A stretch of DNA of 64,000 nt from an uncultured Bacteroidales bacterium. GTDB lineage: Bacteria; Bacteroidota; Bacteroidia; Bacteroidales; Paludibacteraceae. This document shows, in pieces, positions 2,855 through 8,872 of this stretch. Numbering within the stretch: the stretch's first letter is position 1; each line of letters begins with the position of its first letter. Made by a program: the position numbers and the translations under genes. The stretch spans positions 1 to 64,000 of the forward strand of contig CACWZZ010000013.1 of NCBI GenBank assembly GCA_902765485.1, read 5' to 3'. Under the pieces are notes generated by a model that had not been told where the DNA came from, searched no databases, and worked only from the letters and a program-made list of their open reading frames with translations.

Positions 2855-3658
2855 TTAGAGGAGGAATCGGCGGCGGAGGAGGTGGATGTCGGCGGATGTG
2901 AGGAGAAGCTGGTTCTCCAGATAGGAGGACATGCCGCCAAACTCACGGTCGATGAGGTTGAGAGTGCGGATGAAATTATTGGTGGAAACGCCCATGAAGG
3001 CGCGGATAACTTCCATCTCGGGTTCGCCTCCACCACGACGGATGATCTCTGCGTTGAGGCGATCCACGAGTGTGCGGTACGCAGCGTTGGAGAGGTCAAA
3101 GTCCGCAATGATCGCTTCCCTGTCCACACCGAGGGCAAAAAGCAGATACGCAGCTCCCCACCCTGTCCGGTCCTTGCCTTGGAAGCAATGCCAGAGTATT
3201 CCGCCGTCCTCGGGGCTCTCCACGATCAGGCGAAGGAAGGTGGCGTACTGGAGTTGGGAATATTCGCTACGGATGAGCGAGGGGTACATGTTTGCCGCCA
3301 TGGCTTGCACCTCGGGATAGAAGGAATAGTTGACGATGTGGCTTTCGAGGTCGAGGAAAGCTTCTTGGGGAATCGGCTGCTCTGTCAGTCTCTCGGCGCT
3401 GAGGTCGATGGTCGGCAGGAGATGATGGGTTGCACCCTCCACAGGCTGATCCGGCAAGGCTTCCGCTTCTCCGAAAGAGCGGAAATCGAAGATGCGGACG
3501 AGGTTGAATTCGTCATGGAGACGTTTTAAGTCGGCAGGCGAAGCGTCATGGAGGTGCGCTGTACGCAAGATACGATGCGGTCGTACGGCGTGCCCTCCGG
3601 CGCCGATCATGCCACCCAAGTCGCGGGCGTTCACTATGTTATCAAAAGAGACTTCCAA
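2855..3658 (-). CDS. Tyrosine-protein phosphatase (Y_phosphatase3 type)
   Basis: A 267-residue dual-specificity/tyrosine phosphatase. The phosphate-binding loop is WHCFQGKDRTGW with nucleophile Cys158 and the Cx5R arginine; NARDLGG near residue 9 is the usual N-terminal motif of this family, and the conserved RIFDFRS strand follows. No signal peptide is present, so it is probably cytoplasmic. The start is TTG at 3658 in TTGGAAGTC, chosen because the NARDLGG motif needs to be near the N-terminus and no ATG precedes it. It is the last gene of the sensor/alarmone operon and follows the HD gene across a 7-bp repeat. The substrate is unknown. Confidence 0.88.
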   Translation of the reverse strand: MEVSFDNIVNARDLGGMIGAGGHAVRPHRILRTAHLHDASPADLKRLHDEFNLVRIFDFRSFGEAEALPDQPVEGATHHLLPTIDLSAERLTEQPIPQEAFLDLESHIVNYSFYPEVQAMAANMYPSLIRSEYSQLQYATFLRLIVESPEDGGILWHCFQGKDRTGWGAAYLLFALGVDREAIIADFDLSNAAYRTLVDRLNAEIIRRGGGEPEMEVIRAFMGVSTNNFIRTLNLIDREFGGMSSYLENQLLLTSADIHLLRRRFLL

Positions 3659-3662
3659 TTAA

Positions 3663-3690
3663 TGTTTAGCGTTTAGTGTTTAGTGTTTAG
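3663..3690. repeat. 7-bp tandem repeat (TGTTTAG) at an operon junction
   Basis: Four copies of TGTTTAG (one with C for T). Read in the sense direction the unit is CTAAACA, so a TAA occurs in every frame; the stop codon of the HD gene (3687-3689) is part of the repeat. Confidence 0.85.
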
Positions 3691-4271
3691 AGATGCGGAT
3701 AGAAGACATCGTTGATGAGGCGGAGGAACTCTTGGTAGGCAAAAGTGTCTGCGAGGGGCGAGAGAGCGTCTGCGAGTCCGCGGTAGTGCCACTCGTGGGA
3801 GAACTTGTCCGTGACATGGAAGATTGACCAGAGGTCGTCACCTTTGATTTGATAGTCGCGCCATATCGCGCGCATGTTACTTAGTTTATCTCCCATCGCT
3901 ACGACTTTTGCGTCAAAAGGCGCCGCCGCGAGACGGTTGATTGCCGCCTCTTTGCGTGCATGCCAACTATCCGCTTCGGAGACGCCATCGATGAAGACAT
4001 CGCTTTCGTCCTGAACGAGTTGCGCTACTCTGTCGCCAAAGAGGGAGCGGAGTTGGTCGATCGTGACGTCGGTGTCTTCGATCGTGTCATGGAGAGCTGC
4101 CGCCGCCAGAAGTTCCTGGTCGGAGGTGATGGTGGCTACAATCTCCACCGCCTCGAGAGGATGGACGATGTACGGAAAGCCTTTTCCGCGGCGCTCCGTG
4201 TTATGATGGGCGTTGACCGCAAAGATGATTGCACGGTCCAAGAGGTCTGAATCAATATATTTATTCGCCAT
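3687..4271 (-). CDS. HD-domain alarmone hydrolase-like protein (SpoT/MESH1 type)
   Basis: A 194-residue single HD domain. It shows AHHNTERRGKGFPYIVHP (His37), the metal and catalytic motif LHDTIEDT (His61, Asp62, Glu65, Asp66) and GDKLSNMR (Asp128), all as in the ppGpp hydrolase domain of SpoT and in small alarmone hydrolases. No synthetase, TGS or ACT domain is attached. The start is ATG at 4271 (MANKYID); the longer frame would overlap the upstream gene by 49 bp. Being in one operon with a RelA/SpoT-type synthetase (5216-6274) suggests a split synthesis/hydrolysis pair. True substrate (ppGpp or another nucleotide) is inferred. Confidence 0.82.
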   Translation of the reverse strand: MANKYIDSDLLDRAIIFAVNAHHNTERRGKGFPYIVHPLEAVEIVATITSDQELLAAAALHDTIEDTDVTIDQLRSLFGDRVAQLVQDESDVFIDGVSEADSWHARKEAAINRLAAAPFDAKVVAMGDKLSNMRAIWRDYQIKGDDLWSIFHVTDKFSHEWHYRGLADALSPLADTFAYQEFLRLINDVFYPHL

Positions 4272-4285
4272 AGATGCAAGAATGA

Positions 4286-5182
4286 TTAGTAAATTGTGCC
4301 CTCCAGCATAGCTCGGAACTCGGGCATCGGGCAATGGGTGTCACGCTCAACGATGAGTGTTTTGAGTCCCGCATAGACCTTGATTTGGCGCTCCACTTCG
4401 TTGAGATCAGCTCCGGGTCCGAAGAGAGGATTGCCGTTTTTATCCTTGGTATCATAAGGAATCAACGGGCAGTCGGGCGAGAGGAAATACTCTGCGGCAA
4501 AGGCATCCCAGAAACGTCGCGCGGTGGCATTGGACATGTGGTATTGCTCCATGGTCCACGCTTCGTTATTGAGACAGCAGCAGAGATAGACCATACCGAG
4601 GTCGAACATGGGATAGCCGTAGCAGAAATCGCCGAGGTCGATGAAATACGGCGTACGCACACCGTTTTTCTCGGTGAAGATACCGTTGGAGAACTGGAGG
4701 TCGCCATGAATAGCCGTATCAGCTTCCGGCGCAGCAGCAATGAAATCGTGGATATTCTGTTTTTGGTCGGGAGTAAAGTCGGGATTCGTGTCCAGCATGT
4801 GGTATAGACGGTCTTTGACCGACTCAAACCGGTCCGTGGGAACATGGATGGAGTGCAGTTTGATACAGAGGCGCGCGAACTCGCGTGCGTACTCCTCCGT
4901 GCGTTCCGGTTCATCTCCGCAAGCGCGCGAGTAAGAGCGTTTGCCTTCCAGACGACGGAAACGTATTCCGACCTGCTTACCGTCCGTCACCAAGTCTCCG
5001 GGTTCGGGCGAAGGGATGCCCAAGGCGTACACTTTTTGCGCCAGCTCCAACTCCAACGCCGCTGCATCAAAATTGCGGAAATAGAGTTTGAGCATGATAT
5101 TGGGATCCGACTTGTGGTTATAACTGGCACCGTTGGCTCCTTCGCCGGTGCGGATGTAGTCGTTGAGATCAATCTGGGTCAT
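4286..5182 (-). CDS. TIGR02172-type phosphotransferase (aminoglycoside-kinase fold)
   Basis: A 298-residue small-molecule-kinase fold. The catalytic loop is AIHGDLQFSNG (His159, Asp161, Asn166) and the metal motif is YFIDLGDF (about 180-186); the N-terminal lobe has IMLKLYF with a likely ATP-binding lysine. It resembles the Bacteroidota/Fibrobacter TIGR02172 family related to aminoglycoside and choline kinases. There is nothing to indicate drug resistance; the gene is embedded in a signalling operon, 15 bp before the HD gene. Its substrate (protein, nucleotide or metabolite) is unknown. Confidence 0.75.
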   Translation of the reverse strand: MTQIDLNDYIRTGEGANGASYNHKSDPNIMLKLYFRNFDAAALELELAQKVYALGIPSPEPGDLVTDGKQVGIRFRRLEGKRSYSRACGDEPERTEEYAREFARLCIKLHSIHVPTDRFESVKDRLYHMLDTNPDFTPDQKQNIHDFIAAAPEADTAIHGDLQFSNGIFTEKNGVRTPYFIDLGDFCYGYPMFDLGMVYLCCCLNNEAWTMEQYHMSNATARRFWDAFAAEYFLSPDCPLIPYDTKDKNGNPLFGPGADLNEVERQIKVYAGLKTLIVERDTHCPMPEFRAMLEGTIY

Positions 5183-5215
5183 GGGAATGTGAAATTAAAA
5201 ATTAAAAATGGAAAA

Positions 5216-6274
5216 TTATTTTTGCATGAAGGGGAGGTTGAGAGCTTGGGTGTACGTCAGTTCCGCCAGCTCGGCATTGTGGCTGTTATGCCCGTTCAGG
5301 ATGTCGAAAAGCCGCTCCAAGCCGATCTTGCCACCACCTGTACTAAGGACACAGACGATACAGATATTCTGCAGCCCGACCGCGGAAGAGATAATATCCA
5401 AGTCGGTGTTTCCGAGCTGGTGTCTCGCCAAACGATAAGCGTCCTCTTCATAGCGCGAGATAAGACGGCTGACGTCGCCCAAGGTGTTGCATTGGAGTTC
5501 CTTGAGGATGCGCAGGTAGCGAATGAGCGGCGCGTCCATAATCTCCGCCTGGTTAATCGCCGCAATGCGTTTATTGAGTGCATCGAAAGGCTTTGCCTGT
5601 AGGTACGAACGGAAGGTATCGCCATCGAGCAGCACTTCGTCCAGACGTCCGGAACTAACCAGTTGCTGGACACGGCGGCGGTAGTCGTTGATCTCCGTAC
5701 GGATACGGCTGAACTCATCGTCCGCCATCTCTAACATCCCGGCAAGTCGGTTCATACGACGCAGATACTCGCGCGGAATCTCGATGCCGGACTTATATCC
5801 CGTGTCATGGTTGATCGACGCCCACGCGTGCTGGAGGGTCGTGCGGAGCTGAAGCTCAAAACGCAGCGGGTAATTCGGCAAGCGGCAGATATAATGGAGC
5901 GAGTTATAGCCAAAACTATCAAGCTGGTGAAGCCGGCGTTTGTCCACCGAGTTTTCCCAGTCGATATCAAACATCTGCTCCGCCATCGCCGCGACACGGT
6001 CCACATCGTCGGTGTAGAACGTGATAATTCGCGCACCGAGGACATCCGTTATATCCGCGAGCGTCGCGTATTTAGCGCCCTTGAGCGCCAGTTTGCCCGC
6101 CAAACTCTCTTCGGTTTTGATACGCGCTTCGATCGCCGTGACATAAAGTCCGTTGCGGTCCAAGGCTTCGCGAAGCTTCGCAAGCACCTCCTCTTTCATC
6201 TGCTCCAAGAGCGGCAGCGAGTCGCGGTACTCGTCCAAGATGAGCTGGCAATGTAGATCAAGCGAATCCATCAT
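5216..6274 (-). CDS. RelA/SpoT-domain protein, putative alarmone synthetase
   Basis: A 352-residue protein with a RelA/SpoT nucleotidyltransferase domain at about 45-170: RIKTEESLAGK (Arg51, Lys61), DITDVLGARI with Asp73-like acidic residue, FGYNSLHYI, and ELQLRTTLQHAWASINHDTGYKS, which is the substrate-binding segment of (p)ppGpp synthetases. No HD or TGS domain is present. The C-terminal half (about 180-352) is helical and unassigned. It overlaps the STAS gene stop by 4 nt (ATGA), implying translational coupling to the partner-switching pair. Activity as ppGpp synthetase is inferred; it could make another nucleotide or modify tRNA like toxic small synthetases. Confidence 0.82.
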   Translation of the reverse strand: MMDSLDLHCQLILDEYRDSLPLLEQMKEEVLAKLREALDRNGLYVTAIEARIKTEESLAGKLALKGAKYATLADITDVLGARIITFYTDDVDRVAAMAEQMFDIDWENSVDKRRLHQLDSFGYNSLHYICRLPNYPLRFELQLRTTLQHAWASINHDTGYKSGIEIPREYLRRMNRLAGMLEMADDEFSRIRTEINDYRRRVQQLVSSGRLDEVLLDGDTFRSYLQAKPFDALNKRIAAINQAEIMDAPLIRYLRILKELQCNTLGDVSRLISRYEEDAYRLARHQLGNTDLDIISSAVGLQNICIVCVLSTGGGKIGLERLFDILNGHNSHNAELAELTYTQALNLPFMQK

Positions 6275-6573
6275 TGTATCTCAAAAAGGCTGATAAATCC
6301 GGTCATGATAAAGACCTGGCGAATATCGGCGTTGATGTTGCGAACAATCACTTTGGAACCATGAGCAGCCGCGTCCTTGCGGATAGAAAGGAAAATACGC
6401 AGACCGGACGAAGAGATGTACTCTAACTTGGTACAATCGAGGATGATCTCTTTGTGAGAAGCCTCCTGAAGGGGTTTCACTTGCTCCGCCGTAGCGACCG
6501 CAGCCGCTGTGTCCAGACGTCCGTCGAAATAGGCAATGATTTGATCACCGGATTCTTGAATTTGAGTTGACAT
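6271..6573 (-). CDS. Anti-anti-sigma-type STAS domain protein
   Basis: A 100-residue single STAS domain, the size of SpoIIAA/RsbV. The motif LEYISSSGLRIFL (residues 50-62) corresponds to the phosphorylation site of antagonist proteins (usually DSSGL; here Ser replaces the Asp). In partner switching such a protein is phosphorylated by an HATPase kinase and dephosphorylated by a PP2C phosphatase; both activities are predicted in the gene just upstream. No anti-sigma target or alternative sigma factor lies in the window. It begins 23 bp after the sensor gene and its stop overlaps the synthetase start. Confidence 0.9.
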   Translation of the reverse strand: MSTQIQESGDQIIAYFDGRLDTAAAVATAEQVKPLQEASHKEIILDCTKLEYISSSGLRIFLSIRKDAAAHGSKVIVRNINADIRQVFIMTGFISLFEIQ

Positions 6574-6596
6574 AATTTTATTTACAATTTAATGAT

Positions 6597-8642
6597 TTAC
6601 AATTTTTTAATGAGGGTAAGGATGTTCTTGTCATCTATGCGTTCGTAGATGATTTGGTCCATGAGCTGGCGCACGAGATGTATTCCGAGTCCGCCGATAG
6701 CGCGCTCTTCCGCCGAGAGGGTGATGTCCGCTTCGGATTTTTGGGTCGGATCGAACGGAATACCCGAGTCGGAGATCGTGAAGATCATTTGCCGTCCTTG
6801 CTCGGTCGGCACCTCCAGATACTCGACGAAGACTTTACCGTCCGTGCGATCGGGATAAGCATAGAGCATCACATTGCTGACCGCTTCTTCGAGCGCCAAG
6901 TTGATCGGCATATTGAACTCCGCCGGCACATTCAGCCCATCCACCCATTCGGCGAGGGTTGGAATCTGCTGGATGTCATTACGCATGACAATCGCAGGGA
7001 GTTGAAAACGGATAGCCAGCATGGTGAGATCGTCGCTCTGCTGGGCGTCGCCCGCGAAAGAAGCTACTTTGGCACGCATGGCGTCCACTATTTGGCGCGG
7101 CCGGAGAGCAAGCATTTTTTTCACCTCCTCCAACATACGCGACTCGCCGAACAGCTCATGGCGTGTGTTCTCCGCCTCGGTCAGTCCATCCGTATAAAGG
7201 AAGAGAAGGTCGGAGGGATGCAGGTCAATCTCCTGCGACTGATACTCAAAGCCGGTGAGGACACCGATCGGCAGATTCGGCAAGACAGTCAACATCTCGC
7301 CGTTGAGTAGAGGCGCGTTATGCCCGGCGTTGCAATAATGGAGATGTCCGTTCGTGAGGTCCAAGACGCCGACAAAGAGTGTGACGAACATGTTCTGGTC
7401 GTTCTGCTCAGCGAGCGTGTCGTTGATCTGAGTTGCTATCAAATGGGCGTGTTCCTCGTGCGCCGTGACGCTACGGAAGAGGGACCGGATCGTCGCCATG
7501 ACAAGCGAAGCCGGAACACCTTTTCCGCTGACATCGCCGACGCAGAAGAAGAGTTTGTCGTGGCGCACATAGAAATCATACAAATCGCCGCCGATCTCCT
7601 TCGCCGGATCGACCATGCCATAGATATTCAGATCCAAGCGGTCGGCAAAAGGCGGAAAGACCTTCGGCAACATCGCGCGCTGGATCGTTTGAGCGATCTC
7701 CAGTTCGTTCATCATTCGCTCCTTCTGGTAGTTCGCGGAGATCAGATTCTGGATATTACGCCCGCTATGATACATGATAAAAATCAGCAGCGCGAGGCCT
7801 AAAATCATCAGAATCGTCACAATAAAGCCCACGTAGCGGAGGTCGGCGTACAAGATGTCCTCCGGAATAATGATTGAAATATGCCACCCCGTCGCATCAA
7901 TCTTCTCCTCGAAGATCATATACTTGCGCCCCGGCATGGTGTCCGGACGGGCAACGATGTCCACTCCCATAGCCGAAGCGATCGAATAATAGCTGTCCTT
8001 ATAGACCTGGAGGTACTCCGAGACGCGGTGGAGACGGCTGATGGACAGATCGACGCAAACGACCGCAACCACTTTGCCCTCCTTGTCATGGACAGGGTAA
8101 GAGCAGCTGACGACCATCGCCCTCGCGCCCGCATCGTCCAGATAGGGCTCGGACCACCAAGTGCTGTCAATCGTGAGTCCATTATTGAACCACTCGGCTT
8201 GAAAATAGTCGTGGTCCTTATTACCTATTTGACGCGTGTATATGCGCGCGCTATCGCCGGAAGAGATCCGGCTGCTGCATATCTCATACCAGCGGCCTTT
8301 GGAGGGATAATAATCCGCGATGAACGCCACTCCGGCGCTCTCCACATTATCCAATGTCTCAACCAAGGTATGCGTGCAGGTGTACATGCCCTCCGGGTGA
8401 TCCAGGCTAAGCTCCACCATATTGGTCAGCATCTTCGCCGCCGCCTCCAGTTCCGCAGTAGCGGCATTGATCTCCAGCTCAGCAGCACGCAGTTCAGCAC
8501 GCGCCCTATTCTCCGCCTCACGCTGGATCGCTGCGCGGCTGTAGAAATATTGAAGACAAGCCGTTGCCTCTAGAACCAGTCCGGCTACCAATAAAATCCA
8601 GAATCCTCCCGCTCTCGCTAATTTCTTTTTATTCTCGTCCAT
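6597..8642 (-). CDS. Membrane sensor with SpoIIE-type PP2C phosphatase and HATPase kinase domains
   Basis: A 681-residue signalling protein. It has a membrane segment at 12-32, an extracytoplasmic dCache-like sensor at about 35-268 (SEPYLDDAGARAMVVSCSYPV, then KEGKVVAVVCVDLSI), a second membrane segment at 271-292, a PP2C/SpoIIE domain at about 315-550 (GGDLYDF, VGDVSGKGVPAS, SDDLTML) and a C-terminal HATPase_c domain with ALEEAVSNVMLYAY (N box), SGIPFDP and GGLGIHLVRQLMD. It therefore carries both phosphatase and anti-sigma-like kinase activities in one chain, acting on the STAS protein next door. It is the first gene of a six-gene operon; a promoter is at 8671-8702. Confidence 0.92.
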   Translation of the reverse strand: MDENKKKLARAGGFWILLVAGLVLEATACLQYFYSRAAIQREAENRARAELRAAELEINAATAELEAAAKMLTNMVELSLDHPEGMYTCTHTLVETLDNVESAGVAFIADYYPSKGRWYEICSSRISSGDSARIYTRQIGNKDHDYFQAEWFNNGLTIDSTWWSEPYLDDAGARAMVVSCSYPVHDKEGKVVAVVCVDLSISRLHRVSEYLQVYKDSYYSIASAMGVDIVARPDTMPGRKYMIFEEKIDATGWHISIIIPEDILYADLRYVGFIVTILMILGLALLIFIMYHSGRNIQNLISANYQKERMMNELEIAQTIQRAMLPKVFPPFADRLDLNIYGMVDPAKEIGGDLYDFYVRHDKLFFCVGDVSGKGVPASLVMATIRSLFRSVTAHEEHAHLIATQINDTLAEQNDQNMFVTLFVGVLDLTNGHLHYCNAGHNAPLLNGEMLTVLPNLPIGVLTGFEYQSQEIDLHPSDLLFLYTDGLTEAENTRHELFGESRMLEEVKKMLALRPRQIVDAMRAKVASFAGDAQQSDDLTMLAIRFQLPAIVMRNDIQQIPTLAEWVDGLNVPAEFNMPINLALEEAVSNVMLYAYPDRTDGKVFVEYLEVPTEQGRQMIFTISDSGIPFDPTQKSEADITLSAEERAIGGLGIHLVRQLMDQIIYERIDDKNILTLIKKL

Positions 8643-8670
8643 TTGGGGTCATAATTTTCATTTTACGGCG

Positions 8671-8702
8671 CAAAATTACTACTTTTTCGTCAAATATGCA
8701 AA
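8671..8702 (-). promoter_or_regulatory. Promoter of the sensor/alarmone operon
   Basis: TTTG (8702-8699), 20 bp, TAATTTTG (8678-8671), reading on the minus strand into the sensor gene about 30 bp away. Confidence 0.65.
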
Positions 8703-8797: not shown

Positions 8798-8870
8798 GGT
8801 GCTATCGTCTAGTGGCCTAGGACAACGGCCTCTCACGCCGTAAACCCCGGTTCGAGTCCGGGTAGCACTA
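8798..8870 (+). tRNA. tRNA-Glu (anticodon CTC)
   Basis: A complete cloverleaf: acceptor GGTGCTA pairs with TAGCACT (one G-U), the D arm has CGTCTAGTGGCCTAGGACA as in Glu tRNAs, the anticodon stem ACGGC/GCCGT encloses CTCTCAC (anticodon CTC, reads GAG) and the T arm is CCCGGTTCGAGTCCGGG. CCA is not encoded. Confidence 0.96.
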
Positions 8871-8872
8871 CT

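Follow-up and report, generated by a model that had tools for sequence, protein, structure and literature searches.

Partner switching on enzymes of second-messenger metabolism is already known. STAS or STAS-like proteins control diguanylate cyclases in the pairs SiaC-SiaD, HsbA-HsbD and BgrV-BgrR (PMC8457831). HsbA in addition binds both HsbR and an anti-sigma factor (PMC6482189), so that one STAS protein may have several partners. Rel and RshB are given as the typical alarmone enzyme set of Bacteroidia (Atkinson 2011, PMC3153485). Here we describe an operon of six genes, on the minus strand at positions 2855-8642 of a 64,000-nucleotide window (the whole stretch of DNA that was analyzed) from an uncultured Bacteroidales bacterium of the Paludibacteraceae (assembly GCA_902765485.1, contig CACWZZ010000013.1). 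In order, it encodes a sensor fused to PP2C and HATPase domains, a stand-alone STAS protein, a predicted small alarmone synthetase (SYN), an APH-fold kinase (KIN), a stand-alone HD hydrolase (HD) and a phosphatase (DUSP). The reading frames bear out the six adjacent minus-strand genes of a preliminary description made from the sequence alone. That description had also linked a partner-switching cassette genetically to a split synthetase/hydrolase pair, and we find that this linkage recurs across loci and across genomes of the genus.

We propose that the operon forms a self-contained module in which partner switching links alarmone turnover to a signal from the periplasm; the STAS protein would regulate enzymes from neighboring genes, SYN being the likeliest target. 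We assign this reading a probability of roughly one half. By analogy with the enzymes of cyclic diguanylate (c-di-GMP) synthesis, the locus is most readily interpreted as a variant of a known theme that would act on alarmone enzymes. The preliminary description knew of no described system with this gene set in this order. Among the matches listed from the open-licence literature we likewise found no account of the set, nor of partner switching with a RelA/SpoT enzyme, but the c-di-GMP precedents mean that switching of second-messenger enzymes as such is not new.

What distinguishes the locus from its closest relatives? The STAS or STAS-like switches of diguanylate cyclases are the nearest precedents for control of SYN by STAS. 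In SiaABCD of Pseudomonas aeruginosa, HsbA-HsbD and BgrV-BgrR, a small switch protein governs, through its phosphorylation, the synthase of a nucleotide second messenger (PMC8457831), whereas here the likeness is one of gene linkage only. SiaABCD differs further in that the module described here has as its putative output a synthetase of the RelA/SpoT domain type, accompanied by a hydrolase of its own and by an APH-fold kinase, in that SiaC is a DUF1987 protein whereas the STAS protein here is plain, and in that kinase and phosphatase are fused here. SiaA is a PP2C phosphatase, in agreement with the name of its NCBIfam model; the operon yields 54.4 bits against this equivalog model, whose cut-off is 700. 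With RsbU-RsbV-RsbW and SpoIIE-SpoIIAA-SpoIIAB the operon shares the PP2C, HATPase_c_2 and STAS families together with their catalytic and phospho-site residues: a SpoIIE/RsbU-type PP2C, an RsbW/SpoIIAB-type HATPase and a STAS domain with a conserved phosphorylatable Ser are all recognizable. Unlike RsbU-RsbV-RsbW, it has neither a sigma factor nor a separate anti-sigma kinase, and phosphatase and kinase are fused in one sensor.

The alarmone half can be compared in the same way. SYN has a RelA_SpoT domain with catalytic residues and no HD, TGS or ACT domain, as a small alarmone synthetase should, and shares fold and active site with RelQ and RelP across approximately its first 208 residues; it differs from them in an extra helical C-terminal domain (residues ~210-352) and in its operon context. 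The hydrolase has the HD_4 domain with the H, HD, ED and D..N motifs, including HDxxEDT, of MESH1 and the small alarmone hydrolases (SAH). Unlike these, it is tied to SYN and an APH-fold kinase, to which it is fused in five loci. Finally, the long Rel and RshB enzymes of Bacteroidia also join alarmone synthesis and hydrolysis, but carry both domains in one chain.

Conservation of the gene set

Named genome contigs contain at least 586 relatives of SYN, distant ones included. The best 80 were kept, all of them by title from Bacteroidales or Bacteroidia; these are the nearest relatives, and their figures therefore do not describe all of the at least 586. Many of the module-bearing Bacteroidales come from ruminants. 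Where a kept locus extends more than 7 kb on both sides (44 of the 80), PP2C and STAS genes are found in all 44, HD in 43 and KIN in 43, and these four together in 42. The phosphatase, present in 29 of the 44, is an accessory gene. At the level of family and order, a close SYN (at least 50% identity) occurs in 9 of 150 and 9 of 393 genomes, respectively; the window's own genome is in both lists, which have two genomes in common. All 15 such loci besides that of the window were inspected. Thirteen have PP2C and STAS nearby, 11 the kinase (as a fusion with the hydrolase in 4) and 4 the phosphatase. A hydrolase is present in 14; the remaining locus, L035, runs to a contig end, and in L037 the hydrolase counted is a different, shorter HD protein that takes its place.

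The preliminary description suggested a search for the six-gene neighborhood in related genomes. The set proved to be conserved, and the six-gene order to be frequent rather than fixed. It is found exactly in 41 of 100 loci (20 plus the 80 above), the rest being rearranged, truncated or without partners; other orders include SYN-HD-KIN-PP2C-STAS, KIN-PP2C-STAS-SYN-HD and HD-PP2C-SYN-STAS. The 100 include contig-truncated loci, five weak homologues without partners and four pairs that are probably the same contigs twice (L030/L063, L032/L090, L034/L104, L035/L107). Thus the gene set is a conserved module whose content is kept while its order is shuffled between lineages. Because the set recurs in many genomes in shuffled order, and its genes come or go as one unit, it lies far beyond chance.

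This block-like behavior is clearest within the genus, where 42 of 71 genomes have a close SYN (weaker matches in G111 and G592 were left uncounted). A short-frame HD_4 protein accompanies SYN in 41 of the 42 and occurs in 0 of the 29 other genomes, among matches listed down to E ~4e-6. PP2C is present in 42 of 42 genomes with SYN and 8 of 29 without, and none of the 21 genus genomes lacking PP2C has a close SYN. A STAS gene lies within 250 nucleotides of SYN in 41 of the 42 genomes, G561 being the exception. In 17 genomes with SYN, that of the window included, a single PP2C and a single stand-alone STAS were found, both in the module (STAS domains in frames longer than 300 residues, such as permease-like ones, were dropped from this count).

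The proteins of the module

The sensor (6597-8642, minus strand, 681 residues) contains a SpoIIE PP2C domain (168.4 bits), a HATPase_c_2 domain (69.6 bits) and a PDC sensor domain in Pfam and NCBIfam. The preliminary description called the latter dCache. A PDC/Cache-type sensor is indeed present, but dCache_1 itself falls below its cut-off (26.7 against 45 bits), and the best match is PF22673, MCP-like_PDC_1, at 53.4 bits. In alignments of the window with its relatives from the 80 named loci, the PP2C Asp residues, some of which we take to bind metal, are kept in 72-73 of the 72-73 rows with letters at those positions, and the E..N, D.G and GGLG motifs of the HATPase domain (N/G1/G2-type boxes) in 74 of 74. 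The STAS protein (6271-6573, minus strand, 100 residues; STAS domain, 59.7 bits) carries the phospho-site motif YISSSGLR, already named in the preliminary description and identical in 74 of 74 rows; L039 and L042 have YTSSQGLR. Judging from their families, the fusion would provide a phosphatase and a kinase for STAS within one membrane protein. By its predicted domains, PP2C and HATPase kinase in one sensor, the cassette has what setting STAS phosphorylation needs. Two cassette types accompany the same kind of SYN, namely the fused sensor-PP2C-HATPase of the window versus a PP2C with a separate HATPase (L039-L042).

In the window's genome, an assembly 82.76% complete, no other SpoIIE PP2C, stand-alone STAS or HATPase_c_2 above cut-off was found. 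Since the only such HATPase_c_2 is that of the sensor, a separate RsbW-like kinase should not be the output of the cassette in this genome. We also considered a hidden anti-sigma kinase in this genome as the route of control; it found no support, given that the sole HATPase_c_2 above cut-off belongs to the operon, although G597 has a separate one. The preliminary description had likewise reported no sigma factor, and the domain search found none in the operon (sigma factors in the rest of the genome were not searched).

SYN (5216-6274, minus strand, 352 residues) matches RelA_SpoT over residues 51-163 with 63.6 bits. Its catalytic residues, as the preliminary description had held, are intact: R51, K53, S57, K61, D77, Y123, H127, E140, Q142 and R144 are kept in 81 of 81 rows, and R82 is invariant in 44 rows. 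By our comparison of spacing, R51, K53, S57, K61, R82, E140 and Q142 match R64, K66, S70, K74, R95, E145 and Q147 of FaRel2, which lie at its ATP site (PMC11782079). Because FaRel2 is itself toxic, this match shows an intact RelA/SpoT-type site and not specificity for guanosine tetra- or pentaphosphate, (p)ppGpp. Among solved structures, a sequence search ranks synthetases of the RelQ/RelP type closest (E 2e-18 to 6e-14), which is suggestive of (p)ppGpp over (p)ppApp, its adenosine counterpart, or modified tRNA; the match to CapRel, a toxic enzyme, falls well behind (E 0.0014). Structure comparison gave the same ranking. The predicted model (mean predicted local distance difference test score, pLDDT, 87.2; predicted template-modeling score, pTM, 0.63) aligns with RelQ/RelP over ~190-200 columns (best E 2e-9, template-modeling score, TM, by target 0.65-0.82) and more poorly with CapRel (TM ~0.35-0.37 among the matches listed). 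The C-terminal helical domain is mostly confident in the model and had no match of its own among the 50 listed. Our use of the term alarmone for the products of the pair follows family membership, from which we infer (p)ppGpp as the nucleotide.

Could SYN and HD instead be a toxin-antitoxin or phage-defense pair, of the toxic small alarmone synthetase (toxSAS) and SAH type, carried by a sensor operon and making (p)ppApp or pyrophosphorylated tRNA? The toxSAS FaRel is known with an adjacent SAH gene (PMC11782079), the presence of SYN in the genus is patchy (42 of 71 genomes, many of them incomplete), and PADLOC gives a weak match to SYN only, with the candidate model PDC-S33 (E 6.7e-14), the other five proteins being without a match. 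Moreover, a 357-residue relative of SYN with 42.3% identity over residues 12-208 is encoded among phage structural genes on the record of Bacteroides finegoldii plasmid 44 (L185:5989-7062, plus strand). We nevertheless regard this explanation as very improbable, given the ranking of RelQ/RelP over CapRel; in addition, a sensor-phosphatase and a STAS protein are not part of the toxSAS layouts in the excerpts of PMC11782079, and no further small gene occurs in the operon among the open reading frames of the window. A search of plasmid and phage collections turned up no mobile copy of the module: the 14 and 3 records found were all below 60% identity and 80% cover, and the neighborhood was viewed for one of them.

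The hydrolase (3687-4271, minus strand, 194 residues), described earlier as a stand-alone HD enzyme, holds up as such. It has an HD_4 domain (67.5 bits) and MESH1/SAH-type solved relatives (7qoc, 4yf1, 3nr1), and the H, D, E and D of HDxxEDT and the D and N of GDKLSN are kept in 75 of 75 rows. Its start is probably the ATG at 4271, which gives MANKYIDS as in relatives, rather than the TTG at 4334. It is the only full HD_4 match in the window's assembly. That it is the genome's only alarmone hydrolase we reject on account of the 82.76% completeness and because 64 of 71 genus genomes encode a long frame (585-884 residues, with one exception of 371) that matches HD_4 strongly, at E 3e-41 or better; a long bifunctional RelA/SpoT homologue is probably just missing from the assembly. 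Many genus genomes also show, beside the full match, a partial HD_4 match (profile positions ~110-155) in frames of ~440-590 residues. One such genome-level observation concerns the RelA/SpoT-like protein at L144:3556-4992 (G000:C8), which has 478 residues and begins after the hydrolase motifs. Proteins of this type, of which only that of L144 was read, are apparently natural synthetase-side long homologues.

The kinase (4286-5182, minus strand, 298 residues) was previously assigned to TIGR02172. It is an APH-fold kinase (APH, 59.7 bits), but its 216 bits against TIGR02172 remain under that model's cut-off of 228.2, so it is better termed TIGR02172-related; matches above the cut-off occur in 19 of 71 genus genomes. 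The HGD...N and D.GD motifs are kept in 75 of 75 rows. Its AlphaFold2 model (mean pLDDT 93.3) has the fold of APH(3') and methylthioribose kinase at TM ~0.5, which is too distant to name a substrate, and nothing in the comparison points to action on antibiotics. A sequence search of solved structures returned nothing for this protein, and no paper naming TIGR02172 was found in the open-licence literature. The last gene (2855-3658, minus strand, 267 residues, TTG start) encodes a Y_phosphatase3 protein (180 bits) with the motif HCFQGKDRTG; the pattern HC.QGKDRTG is kept in 47 of 47 rows, in accord with the Cys-based phosphatase described before.

Proposed mechanism and target of the STAS protein

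We propose that the PDC/Cache-type sensor would shift the balance between two opposing activities of a single membrane protein, PP2C phosphatase and HATPase kinase, and that this balance would set the phosphorylation of a STAS serine. In one of its two states the STAS protein would bind and regulate enzymes of the same operon, with SYN as the likeliest partner, while the stand-alone hydrolase would remove the SYN product and so make the signal reversible. KIN may act on the hydrolase or STAS side, and the phosphatase would be an optional extra. Both the direction of control and the binding partner of STAS are drawn here from gene context: STAS lies between -60 and 150 nucleotides from SYN in 62 of 73 loci, and this overlap or close spacing favors STAS control of SYN. 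In the window the two genes overlap through ATGA, a gap of -4, precisely as first described.

Several observations weigh against this interpretation. In 11 of 73 loci STAS does not adjoin SYN. In a STAS tree of 39 rows and 98 columns, the SYN-linked STAS proteins do not come together in one clade, and the idea that STAS is specific to SYN by descent is consequently without support. G432 and G249, from another family, have SYN-HD without STAS, PP2C or KIN in the ~20 kb fetched; they do encode a PP2C-HATPase protein and STAS elsewhere, adjoining a binding-protein-like gene. Both nest inside the module group of the SYN tree, which makes loss or relocation of the cassette probable in these genomes. 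Of the 17 genomes in which the module holds the sole PP2C and stand-alone STAS, G597 has a separate HATPase_c_2 in a 137-residue frame and G593 a contig-edge piece of one, so that an RsbW-like protein is not absent everywhere. Because the genus genomes are related, Fisher values for co-occurrence overstate independence; many of the assemblies are also incomplete.

In addition, PP2C-STAS cassettes of the same genus adjoin other kinds of genes. Paralogous cassettes stand directly before very large frames resembling nonribosomal peptide synthetases (NRPS) in L130, L133, L134 and L135 (judged by eye; L134 is the least sure), and these frames are possibly a second output of the same switch. In L137, L139, L140 and L143, a PP2C, with or without a separate HATPase and STAS, adjoins an amino-acid-type ATP-binding cassette (ABC) transporter whose binding protein and permease are apparently fused, again by eye. 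Adjacency alone therefore names no target. These cassettes, together with the SYN-HD pairs that lack a local cassette in G432 and G249 and the separate HATPase_c_2 in at least G597, would fit an explanation in which PP2C-STAS has its target outside the operon and the alarmone genes are merely co-transcribed, an arrangement by which a growth brake would be expressed along with the sensing proteins. We consider this distinctly unlikely in view of the 17 genomes without another PP2C or stand-alone STAS, the lack of an RsbW-like kinase in the window's genome, the absence of close SYN from all 21 genus genomes without PP2C, and the retention of gene content through changes of order and through two cassette types.

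A competing target within the operon is KIN. Two genus members without a close SYN encode STAS fused to a TIGR02172-like kinase (L141:6744-7937, plus strand; L186:3379-4617, minus strand), which makes KIN a rival STAS target and adds to the points against control of SYN. HD and KIN are likewise fused into one protein in five loci (L039-L042 and L127), and a close KIN is present in 41 of 42 genus genomes with SYN, the 29 others having only the divergent STAS-fused form, in 2. On these grounds STAS might control the APH-fold kinase and not SYN; the kinase would phosphorylate a small molecule or a protein and work on or with the hydrolase, with SYN and HD downstream. We judge this unlikely. STAS and SYN are present with no KIN within the fetched stretch in L036 and L037, STAS stands beside or overlaps SYN in the 62 of 73 loci given above, and four of the 42 genomes with SYN carry further copies of KIN.

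Returning to STAS control of SYN, we tentatively extend it to a complete path from sensor to alarmone, at odds somewhat short of even: an extracellular ligand sensed by the Cache domain would set STAS phosphorylation, which would directly switch a dedicated (p)ppGpp synthetase, the paired hydrolase-kinase, or both, without the need for a sigma factor or for amino-acid starvation sensed at the ribosome. If true, this path would be the alarmone counterpart of SiaABCD. Some Bacteroidales would then use a reversible protein switch to adjust their alarmone level to a signal in the periplasm, separate partners being responsible for making and removing the alarmone, and an outside signal could set growth rate directly. 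Partner switching would act as an input stage for alarmones as well as for c-di-GMP, and a TIGR02172-type kinase would gain its first functional setting. Furthermore, the module with its natural fusions and rearrangements would offer a compact system for studying the control of RelA/SpoT-domain enzymes by binding proteins.

Relatives outside the module and operon layout

A SYN tree of 45 rows groups the module synthetases with those of two SYN-HD loci (97/95) and separates them from 17 others, homologues that lack the cassette, several of which are on long branches. Outside the order, a SYN homologue (E<=1e-20) occurs in 11 of 395 genomes of the phylum, excluding the window's own, a twelfth. 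None of these 11 loci showed STAS, PP2C, hydrolase or kinase by profile in the 8-16.5 kb fetched, although contig ends truncate L165, L170 and L171. Some single loci are also worth recording. L047, one of the 17 others, has an adjacent HD-like protein missed by the profile; by eye, its SYN domain lies in an 864-residue protein (L047:9058-12239), with the HD-like protein before it and an ion-channel/TrkA-like protein after it. The SYN-HD pair of L043 adjoins an amino-acid-type ABC transporter, also by eye. In the two loci that lack the APH-fold kinase, L036 and L037, a protein that by eye resembles cytidylate kinase is encoded between SYN and STAS (L036:10484-11116 and L037:10506-11138). In L141 the STAS-kinase fusion precedes a PP2C sensor, a second STAS and then the start of the phosphatase gene at a contig end.

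The six genes are tightly packed behind a single promoter. From sensor to phosphatase the gaps are 23, -4, 33, 14 and 28 nucleotides, taking the hydrolase to start at ATG 4271. The promoter, of the Bacteroidetes type (TTTG-N20-TAATTTTG, 8671-8702, minus strand), lies 28 nucleotides upstream of the first gene and is the sole TTTG-N20-TAnnTTTG site on the minus strand in the operon region. A scan with TTTG-N18-22-TAnnTTTG, which we take to be the consensus, found 17 sites in the 64-kb window (334-63097) against 0.59 expected. The operon is flanked upstream by a tRNA-Glu gene on the plus strand (8798-8871) and downstream by a DnaK-like gene, named by eye, at 776-2701.

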